64,000 bases of DNA from Amnibacterium kyonggiense (lineage in GTDB: Bacteria; Actinomycetota; Actinomycetes; Actinomycetales; Microbacteriaceae): contig NZ_SOAM01000001.1 of NCBI RefSeq assembly GCF_004364555.1, positions 1,426,001-1,490,000 of the forward strand, given 5' to 3'. Shown piece by piece: positions 34,741-62,670 of the stretch. A model generated the notes under the pieces. The model saw only the letters and a list, made by a program, of their open reading frames with translations. It searched no databases and was not told the origin of the DNA. The first letter of the stretch is position 1. Every line of letters starts with the position of its first letter. The position numbers were made by a program, and so were the translations under genes.

Positions 34741-34776
34741 CCGCGGCTCGCCGCGGCTGACCACGGCTGCCCGAAA

Positions 34777-34836
34777 CCGCCCTGCTCCGACCGGGACCGC
34801 CCTGCTCCGCCCGGGACGGCCCTGCTCCGACCGGGA
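34777..34836. repeat. Three tandem 20-bp units
   Basis: The unit is CCGCCCTGCTCCGACCGGGA, with one or two changes between copies at 34777, 34797 and 34817. It lies between the secreted-protein stop and the palindrome at 34851, inside a 210-base non-coding gap. Confidence 0.75.
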
Positions 34837-34850
34837 CGGCCCGGGTCGCT

Positions 34851-61167: not shown

Positions 61168-61180
61168 GCCGCAGCGCGAA

Positions 61181-61496
61181 CTTGCCACTAAGCGCCCCAT
61201 TCCCGTTCGGGAAGGGGCGCCGAGTGGCACCCCGCGCCTCGACGCGGCTGGTGCTGCGTGGTCTTGCCGCGATGTGCCCCGTTTTCGTTCCGGGAGGGGG
61301 CGTCGAGTGGCAACCCCGCGCCTCGACGCGGCTGGTGCTGCGTGGACTTGCCGCGATGTGCCCCGTTTTCGTTCGGGGAGGGGCGTCGAGTGGCAAGTCC
61401 GCGCCTCGAGGTGGCTGGCGCTGCGTGGTCTTGCCGCGATGTGCCCCGTTTTCGTTCCGGGAGGGGCGTCGAGTGGCAAGTCCGCGCCTTCAGCAC
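61181..61496. repeat. Tandem array of 83-bp hairpin units (3.8 copies)
   Basis: Units begin at 61181, 61263, 61347 and 61430 (periods 82, 84 and 83); the last is cut off near 61496. Each unit contains a hairpin (TTGCC...GGCAA, with GCCCC/GGGGC inside), then a 30-35 base stretch starting CGCGCCTCGACGCGG. Unit 1 has the most perfect stem: TGCCACT, GCGCCCC, TTCCCG and their complements. The array fills the 360-base gene-free gap between two convergent genes. There are no protein-coding signs on either strand. Confidence 0.92.
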
Positions 61497-61527: not shown

Positions 61528-62670
61528 TCATCCGGCGTGCGGCCGGCCCTCCCGCATCTCCCGGACGAGCGACGACACGACGGCCCGGAGATCGCCGCCC
61601 GCCTGCGCGGACGCGAGCGCCTGCCGCTCGTACGAGGCGCCGACGTCGATGATCGTCAGCACGTCGTGCAGCTCCGTCGCGCAGCCGAGCCGCTCCGCGA
61701 CGGGCTCGAGCCGCGTCACGAGGTCGCGGAGGTCGTCCTCCACGAGCCGCTCGCTCCCGCCTCGGTCGACGACGACCTCCGCGTCCATGCCGTAGCGCGC
61801 GGCCCGCCACTTGTTCTCGCGGACGAACCACGGCTGCAGCGTGCGGAGCTCCTCGCCGGCGTCGAGGCGCTCCGAGAAGTCGTCGACGAGGCACTGCGTG
61901 AGCGCGGAGACGGCGCCGATCTCGAGGATCGTCGGCAGGCCGTCGGACACCCGCGTCTCGACCGTGCCCCACTTCGCGGAGGGCCGCACGTCCCACCGGA
62001 TCTCGTCCCAGTGGTCGATCACGCCGATGTGGATCAGGTCCGCCACGATCGACTCGTACTGCTGCCACGACTCGAGCTGCGGCGGCAGGCCGGCGGTCGG
62101 CAGCTGCTGGAACAGCATCGCGCGGCTCGACGCGTACCCGGAGGACTCCCCGAACACGAACGGCGAGGAGGCCGACAGGGCCTGCAGGTGCGGGTAGTAC
62201 ACGAGCATCGCCTCGAGCACAGGCAGCGCCTTCGCCGGGTCGTCGACCCCGATGTGGTTGTGCACGCCCCAGATCAGCAGCTGGCGGCCGAACACCCCGG
62301 TGCGGTCGACGAGGGTGACGTACCGCTCCTTGTCCGTGACCTGCTGGTCCTGCCAGCGCGCGAACGGGTGGGTCCCGGAGCCGATCAGCTCGAGGCCCAT
62401 CGGGTCGGTGGTCCGCCGGAGCCGCTCGATGGTGTGCTCGAGGTCCGCGACGCCCTCCGCGACCGTGCGGTTGACGCCGGTGACGACCTCGACGGTGTTC
62501 GTGAGCAGCTCGCTCGTGATCCGCTCGTTCCCGTCCTCGTCGGTGAGCACGGTGTTGGCGAGCACCTCGGGCGCGGCGCCGACGAGGTCGCCCGTGTGCC
62601 GATCGACGAGGGCGAGCTCCCACTCGATGCCGAGCGTCGACCGGTCGGACCGCGCGAACTCGATCGCCAT
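61528..62670 (-). CDS. YbdK-family carboxylate-amine ligase (glutamate-cysteine ligase 2 type)
   Basis: A 380-residue ATP-dependent ligase. STLGIEWELALVDRHTGDLVG at the start and ELLTNTVEVVTG hold metal-binding glutamates. GSGTHPFARWQDQQVTDKERYVTLVDRTG and LLIWGVHNHIGVDD are hallmark YbdK/GCS2 segments, with TVETRVSDGLPTI near the end of the core. E. coli YbdK makes gamma-glutamylcysteine slowly; in actinobacteria, where mycothiol is the main thiol, the real substrates are uncertain. The ATG follows CAGGAT by 7 bases, a weak leaderless promoter. Convergent with the luciferase-like gene. Confidence 0.92.
   Translation of the reverse strand: MAIEFARSDRSTLGIEWELALVDRHTGDLVGAAPEVLANTVLTDEDGNERITSELLTNTVEVVTGVNRTVAEGVADLEHTIERLRRTTDPMGLELIGSGTHPFARWQDQQVTDKERYVTLVDRTGVFGRQLLIWGVHNHIGVDDPAKALPVLEAMLVYYPHLQALSASSPFVFGESSGYASSRAMLFQQLPTAGLPPQLESWQQYESIVADLIHIGVIDHWDEIRWDVRPSAKWGTVETRVSDGLPTILEIGAVSALTQCLVDDFSERLDAGEELRTLQPWFVRENKWRAARYGMDAEVVVDRGGSERLVEDDLRDLVTRLEPVAERLGCATELHDVLTIIDVGASYERQALASAQAGGDLRAVVSSLVREMREGRPHAG

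Follow-up and report, generated by a model that had tools for sequence, protein, structure and literature searches.

A helically spaced palindrome array in an Amnibacterium-like genome and its dispersed relatives around predicted AbiEi-VSR nuclease genes

The window, which is the whole 64,000-nucleotide stretch of DNA analysed here, corresponds to positions 1426001-1490000 of contig C1 in a 3.7-Mb Amnibacterium-like assembly. Two convergent genes in it, one for an F420-dependent LLM-class oxidoreductase (TIGR03856; 60367-61167, plus strand) and the other for a glutamate-cysteine ligase of the YbdK family (gshA; 61528-62670, minus strand), enclose the tandem hairpin array that the original prediction had placed between convergent genes. 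The array is real. It is composed of four palindromes, namely unit 1 (61180-61232, 53 bp), unit 2 (61262-61315, 54 bp), unit 3 (61346-61398, 53 bp) and unit 4 (61429-61481, 53 bp), with start-to-start steps of 82, 84 and 83 bp. The spacers between them measure 29 bp (61233-61261), 30 bp (61316-61345) and 30 bp (61399-61428), the third being a near copy of the second. Unit 1 follows the stop codon of the oxidoreductase gene after 12 bp, and its arms can be extended outward to about 61174. Tandem Repeats Finder reported the array at 61204-61489 with a period of 83, 3.4 copies and 92% matches, and its score of 472 was the highest of the 26 rows for the window. Another tandem repeat, with a 20-base unit in 3.3 copies (93% matches), is found at 34776-34842. 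Since sequence differences among units 2-4, and among their spacers, are slight, the array probably grew by local tandem duplication.

The long stem that had been noticed in the units was reproduced by RNA folding. The free energies on the plus strand were -26.6, -32.7 and -27.7 kcal/mol for units 2, 3 and 4, respectively, and -37.6 kcal/mol (z -6.1) for unit 1, in which the stem is best preserved, as had been stated. ORFs of 102-103 amino acids overlap the array on the reverse strand, consistent with the earlier remark that this strand is partly open, and nothing marks them as genes. A tRNA scan of the window found nothing, and no Rfam family was detected in it at the gathering score. A repeated small RNA or its precursor, one of three functions initially offered for the array, would suit the stem of unit 1, which is strong on both strands; given the lack of an Rfam match, together with the absence of wobble asymmetry and the helical phasing described below, we regard it as highly improbable.

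The closest relatives of gshA were found on a contig labelled Acidobacteria (84%) and in Amnibacterium setariae (83%). The products of the two genes beside the array have counterparts with 84% and 92% identity on an Acidobacteria-labelled contig of a metagenome-assembled genome (MAG; locus L061), the label of which is probably wrong. In nine other loci, the orthologous gap was occupied by a different hairpin (e.g. L062 and L070), by a possible decayed relative (L064) or by no clear relative. The strong hairpins at about 3655-3725 in L070 and about 3645-3690 in L062, the hosts of which are a Naasia MAG and A. setariae, are unrelated to the units described here.

A search for single units elsewhere in the same genome, which had been proposed with the original prediction, yielded 12 further palindromes, which span 61-62 bp when measured from one outer end to the other of the arms used in the search, and another scan added one more. 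The members share a plan of a 21-bp arm, an 11-bp gap and a second 21-bp arm, the length of which is nearly invariant while the sequence varies by genus. We scanned 398 Microbacteriaceae genomes for the end pattern ACTTGCCA plus TGGCAAGT, with the total left free between 48 and 60 bp, and found it in 11 genomes versus one for the reversed control. Among the 28 forward places listed, 22 were 53 bp and three were 54 bp long (25/28). A class-wide scan of 394 genomes with the same pattern gave matches in four of the 393 genomes beyond the host, all outside Microbacteriaceae, and the reversed control also gave four, which is the background level. The palindrome ends, too, vary among genera (AGATGCCA, ACTCGCCA, TCCCGTCA and others), and a search of genome and viral contig collections with an exact-arm pattern, which was too strict, returned no match. 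One end-pattern match is probably a coincidence. At about 1400-1660 of L145/L160 (G286:C74), a long hairpin abuts the 3' end of an apparent tRNA-Tyr gene, the end of which supplies the CTTGCCAC match; the tRNA end recurs about 150 bp further on, where it resembles an attachment site.

An alignment of 48 palindromes was almost gapless. In this alignment, 84.7% of the cells in the 21 pairs were paired versus 66.7% after shuffling, percentages that are upper values because some of the rows had been pre-selected for pairing. The covariance model built on this alignment (R1; threshold E up to 0.01) matched at least 76 of 219 Microbacteriaceae genomes and at least 43 of 85 genera, with no more than 26 candidates per genome being scored. 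In the window, it recognised units 1 (50.0 bits, E 2e-15) and 3 (41.8 bits, E 2e-12), both of which were in alignment A3, as well as units 2 (26.2 bits, E 1e-6) and 4 (32.3 bits, E 6e-9), which were outside it. Of the 173 distinct elements that a separate scan of retrieved loci identified, 139 measured 53 bp and 16 measured 54 bp, although many of these loci had been retrieved with R1, which biases the count toward 53 bp. We found no description of such palindromes in the open-access PMC literature; the family is large and apparently undescribed.

Centre-to-centre distances between neighbouring palindromes in arrays were 71-73, 82-85, 93-96 or 103-104 bp, with three exceptions in 46 (53.5, 109 and 184), so that neighbours lie about 7, 8, 9 or 10 DNA turns apart. 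At a period of 10.5 bp, R was 0.89 for the median spacing per array (n = 24), 0.80 for the first value per array (n = 24) and 0.84 for all values (n = 55), and in each case none of 20000 uniform draws reached the observed R. The best period ranged from 10.75 to 10.95 across the three summaries (10.85 for the medians). This repeat of the test omitted values above 120 bp (184 in L159, 175 in L346 and 182 in L314) and the value of 53.5 in L263. An earlier hand-typed list (n = 23), in which the repeated value 104 of L161 was placed before 109 and L223 contributed one start-to-start value, had given R 0.90 and a best period of 10.45. In G012, G386, G414 and others the spacers are unrelated in sequence, and the phasing therefore does not stem from one copied duplication. 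These observations also bear on the possibility that a single terminator was duplicated neutrally in tandem and later decayed. Such a history would account for the near-identity of units 2-4 and their spacers, but it is improbable in view of the dispersed copies, the unrelated spacers at quantised distances and the recurrence across genera. Likewise, a copy number fixed by one ancestral duplication, one part of the outcome that was to refute the original prediction, is contradicted by dispersed single copies and by arrays in several genera.

We next consider whether the palindromes are read as RNA or as DNA. A hairpin maintained as RNA should favour G-U pairs on the sense strand. In co-directional gaps we counted 40 G-U and 39 A-C combinations (20 versus 14 in an earlier, smaller count), and this lack of asymmetry points to duplex DNA rather than to an RNA-hairpin role. 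Pairing between the two arms of the same element amounted to 77.3%, versus 71.4% in shuffled combinations (94 elements from 13 genomes; none of 2000 shuffles was as high). Since rows found with R1 had been pre-selected for pairing, these percentages, too, are upper values. The excess was absent in G237, G344 and G360 and almost absent in G012. The arms mostly follow a genome-wide half-site consensus and, as pairing across elements nearly equals pairing within them, most of the symmetry reflects this shared consensus. The residual excess is significant, and a hairpin role would give the same. Hairpin covariation seemed very strong across genera, but much of it turned out to be the consensus shared within genomes. 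Taken together, the helical phasing and the absence of a wobble bias speak for duplex DNA bound by protein rather than for an RNA hairpin, and the half-site consensus common to different elements points the same way.

The placement of the elements must be explained as well. Gaps bearing an element were convergent in 48 cases, co-directional in 43 and divergent in four, versus 13, 76 and 30, respectively, for the other gaps in the same loci. The nearest element lies a median of 32 nt behind the stop codon (n = 139). Such placement also fits terminators, or insertions tolerated behind genes. Bidirectional terminators or hairpins protecting 3' ends, multiplied in tandem, would explain this bias, the stable RNA stems and the presence of other hairpins in the orthologous gaps of some other species. 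Intrinsic terminators without a U-tract occur in actinobacteria, and the elements resemble them in the position behind stop codons and in the strong stem. All four window units possess a GC-rich hairpin, but sequence inspection found no T-run after any of the stems. Unlike such terminators, moreover, the elements form a sequence family with a near-fixed length of 53 bp, whole-turn spacing and a link to one nuclease family, around which private pairs occur (see below). The length and the spacing are unexpected for terminators, and the private pairs and the equality of G-U and A-C on the sense strand also speak against them. We therefore judge termination or 3'-end protection to be unlikely. Among the functions offered originally, a protein- or nucleoid-binding array fits best, in light of the phasing, the absence of a wobble bias, the half-site consensus and the association, described below, with genes for a DNA-binding fold fused to a nuclease; an expanded terminator is retained as a weaker candidate on account of the placement behind stop codons.

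What might bind the palindromes is suggested by their neighbours. In an all-against-all comparison of 190 flanking-protein entries, in which a gene between two elements was counted twice, 18 clusters were obtained. One recurred in six genomes and was located between two elements in four of these, and the remaining clusters had at most four members, including MFS transporters and GntR-type regulators. The recurrent neighbour matched DUF559 (PF04480) and the MTES_1575 REase. A search with an alignment of six seed genes, which had been picked for adjoining elements (A5), detected homologues in 21 of 24 genomes. It gave 64 matches with E < 1e-40, and 57 loci were examined, a set that excludes seven matches in G006, G009 and G020 as well as the weaker L310. 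R1 palindromes were present on both sides of 16 of the 57 homologues, on one side of six and on neither side of 35. When 36 loci were rescanned without R1, strong palindromes beyond the reach of the model were found on both sides in 17.

To treat all genes alike, matched left-right pairs were counted by a uniform pipeline, from which L300 (contig end) and three gshA loci (short flanks) were excluded. Matched pairs flanked 28 of 56 nuclease genes and none of 77 gshA genes (Fisher 1.7e-13). As the gshA loci were drawn from named species, and thus from different genomes, the genes of the window were added as a same-genome control: none of the 57 had a matched pair, and two had unmatched palindromes on both sides. 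Leaving out the six seed genes gave 25 of 50 (Fisher 6e-13 and 8e-11 against the two controls). Twelve weak AbiEi-like loci served as unclean controls, two of them having matched pairs. The pipeline detected no such pair at the other 28 of the 56 nuclease genes; by the union of both methods, pairs occurred at 33 of the 57 genes and were missing at 24. The longest array observed is at one side of a nuclease gene (L340, G344:C2), where eight palindromes are arranged in steps of 81-83 bp at 562-1192 and one more (2235-2287) is located across the gene. G009, G020 and G060 possess nuclease genes and lack R1 elements. G009 has 15 homologue matches, some of which are fragments, and of three of its loci that were inspected, L336 bears a matched pair of a kind peculiar to it, L305 has palindromes on both sides with 68% identity and L330 has one on one side only.

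Each nuclease gene, including paralogues in the same genome, appears to have its own palindrome. The arms of the two palindromes of one gene were a median of 87% identical, versus 50% between genes; between different genes within one genome the identity was likewise 50%, with a maximum of 61% (50 comparisons). In 32 of 34 genes (L212 was added to this comparison by hand) the left palindrome found its best match in the right palindrome of the same gene, and none of 20000 permutations reached the observed sum. The host genome itself contains four nuclease genes with clearly different pairs (L290, L313, L323 and L327). The A5 search found no nuclease homologue within the window. The window units were most similar to the pair of a gene elsewhere in the genome (G000, C4:61545-62351; 0.71-0.86), with unit 1 tying at 0.71 with the pair of another gene. 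Homologues in L292, L303, L311 and L323 contain an internal stop codon, and three of these (L292, L311 and L323) retain palindromes on both sides, as expected of decaying selfish or redundant genes.

Comparison of related genomes revealed the gene and its palindromes as a unit that can be present or absent. At one site, G000, G002 and G004 carry a palindrome-gene-palindrome cassette that measures about 1.2 kb, each copy with its own matched palindromes; that of G002 has three tandem palindromes on one side and an internal stop in the gene. The cassette is absent in G001, where the two stop codons are only 12 bp apart. It is also absent in G005 and G006, and G003 has other sequence at this position. 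G000 has a solitary element near this site as well, and G002 and G004 lack it. The empty site may be the result of a deletion.

The AlphaFold2 model of the protein, made from 28 homologues (pLDDT 92.9), predicts two parts. Residues 11-197 superposed on the AbiEi antitoxin (6y8q) with Z 10.0 over 173 aligned residues, at a large rmsd of 5.5. The superposition on Rv2827c (1zel; 190 aligned, rmsd 4.5) was weaker, with a Z of 7.0, a value within the range that the structural tool calls common. The C-terminal part of the predicted structure matched I-Bth0305I (3r3p; Z 13.2, 95 aligned, rmsd 2.2), NGO0050 (Z 12.3, 92 aligned, rmsd 2.4) and Vsr (1cw0; Z 11.2, 100 aligned, rmsd 2.5). Residues E205, D238, H255 and D264 are invariant in the alignment of the 28 homologues, and we take them to be the motif named EDxHD. 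Consistent with the nuclease assignment, the MTES_1575 and DUF559 profiles matched 25 and 22 of the 28 homologues, respectively. For the AbiEi part, sequence support was weak (PADLOC profiles in 4/28; Pfam AbiEi_4 and AbiEi_1 in 1/28 each, E about 0.07), and its two-domain fold is recognised mainly by predicted structure. Among the 50 rows given by Foldseek, mitoribosome chains with poor superposition came first, and AbiEi was absent from the matches listed. The family is thus predicted to join an AbiEi-like fold to a VSR/I-Bth0305I-like nuclease. It resembles the EDxHD homing endonuclease I-Bth0305I and E. coli Vsr in the C-terminal fold and in the set of invariant acidic residues and histidine listed above, and differs from those enzymes in being joined to an AbiEi-like fold and flanked by palindromes.

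The organisation described above recalls the REPIN-RAYT system (REPtron). According to PMC3116915, that system comprises palindromic extragenic repeats in which spacer length and pairing are kept, with tandem clusters and with enzyme genes flanked by cognate repeats; PMC8266576 describes single-stranded cleavage and strand transfer, for which a tag such as GTAG serves as the guide. Our elements share inverted conserved ends, a pairing spacer of fixed length (53-54 bp in the 25 listed places mentioned above), clustering and cognate repeats at an enzyme gene. The enzyme is a different one, a predicted AbiEi-VSR nuclease in place of the Y1 HUH transposase, with pairs at 28/56 genes versus 0/77 and 0/57 in the controls. 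Further differences are that the evidence here points to helically phased duplex DNA, and that one genome contains several private palindromes. Despite the common organisation, it is scarcely credible that the elements are classical REPINs mobilised by a RAYT: at the sensitivity of the Pfam search, the Y1 transposase domain (PF01797) was detected in none of the seven genomes of the genus and in none of 25 genomes, 19 of which are rich in elements, while control genomes were positive. RAYT was accordingly rejected as the driver, and because the defining Y1 enzyme was detected in none of the 25 genomes, the palindrome-nuclease system is not a member of the REPIN-RAYT class.

A second comparison concerns the operators of type IV antitoxins. 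PMC7319586 reports that AbiEi binds two inverted repeats of 23 bp with 3 bp between them, and that Rv2827c binds two inverted-repeat pairs with 13-bp gaps. The palindromes resemble these operators, being inverted repeats of 21 bp (23 bp with the common flanking CG) with an 11-bp gap, and some of the nuclease genes have such repeats upstream (palindromes on both sides in 16/57 by R1; 28/56 with matched pairs). Unlike the operators of AbiEi and Rv2827c, the sites lie to either side of the gene and also occur scattered and in arrays; unlike those antitoxins, the protein carries a predicted nuclease domain. The AbiEi-type site plan thus appears to be used in a new setting.

Starting from the computed properties of the system (a family of near-fixed length, phasing, private flanking pairs, predicted folds and a cassette present or absent at one site), we infer binding, an operator role, cutting and mobility as follows. 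On balance we think it probable that the array in the window represents four tandem duplex-DNA sites of the AbiEi-VSR nuclease family, and that solitary sites and arrays are REPIN-like satellites of its genes. Each site would consist of a pair of inverted half-sites, each about 21 bp long and separated by an 11-bp gap, read as duplex DNA through the AbiEi-like part with one protein on each arm, and neighbours in an array would share one face of the helix and contact each other. The palindrome upstream of a nuclease gene may be its own operator, at which the protein would act as a repressor in the manner of AbiEi systems. The nuclease domain may act at or near the sites and thereby spread or homogenise the palindromes; alternatively, solitary sites may be scars of lost cassettes. 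A more tentative proposal, which we consider possible yet on the doubtful side, is that the cassettes are selfish: the AbiEi-VSR protein would read the private 53-bp palindrome at the ends of its gene, nick or cut there, and seed satellites and phased arrays. With similar reserve, such cassettes might be viewed as a convergent counterpart of REPIN-RAYT, assembled from an antitoxin-type DNA reader and a nuclease of mismatch-repair or homing type.

The predicted AbiEi-VSR genes with their matched palindrome pairs suggest a new kind of nuclease-and-repeat system. They link a DUF559/MTES_1575 nuclease family of unknown function, present in 21 of the 24 genomes, to a candidate DNA target, and since for many of the genes this target is visible in the adjoining DNA, specificity is directly testable. 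They also suggest that the driver of REPIN-type populations of palindromic repeats need not be RAYT or an enzyme related to it. The gene-specific palindromes with their helical spacing offer a natural series for the study of protein-DNA recognition. Finally, two distant AbiEi-like genes (L353 and L358, in G360 and G000) are flanked by matched, longer palindromes of 58-74 nt, and the habit of carrying a palindrome pair may extend beyond the nuclease family studied here.
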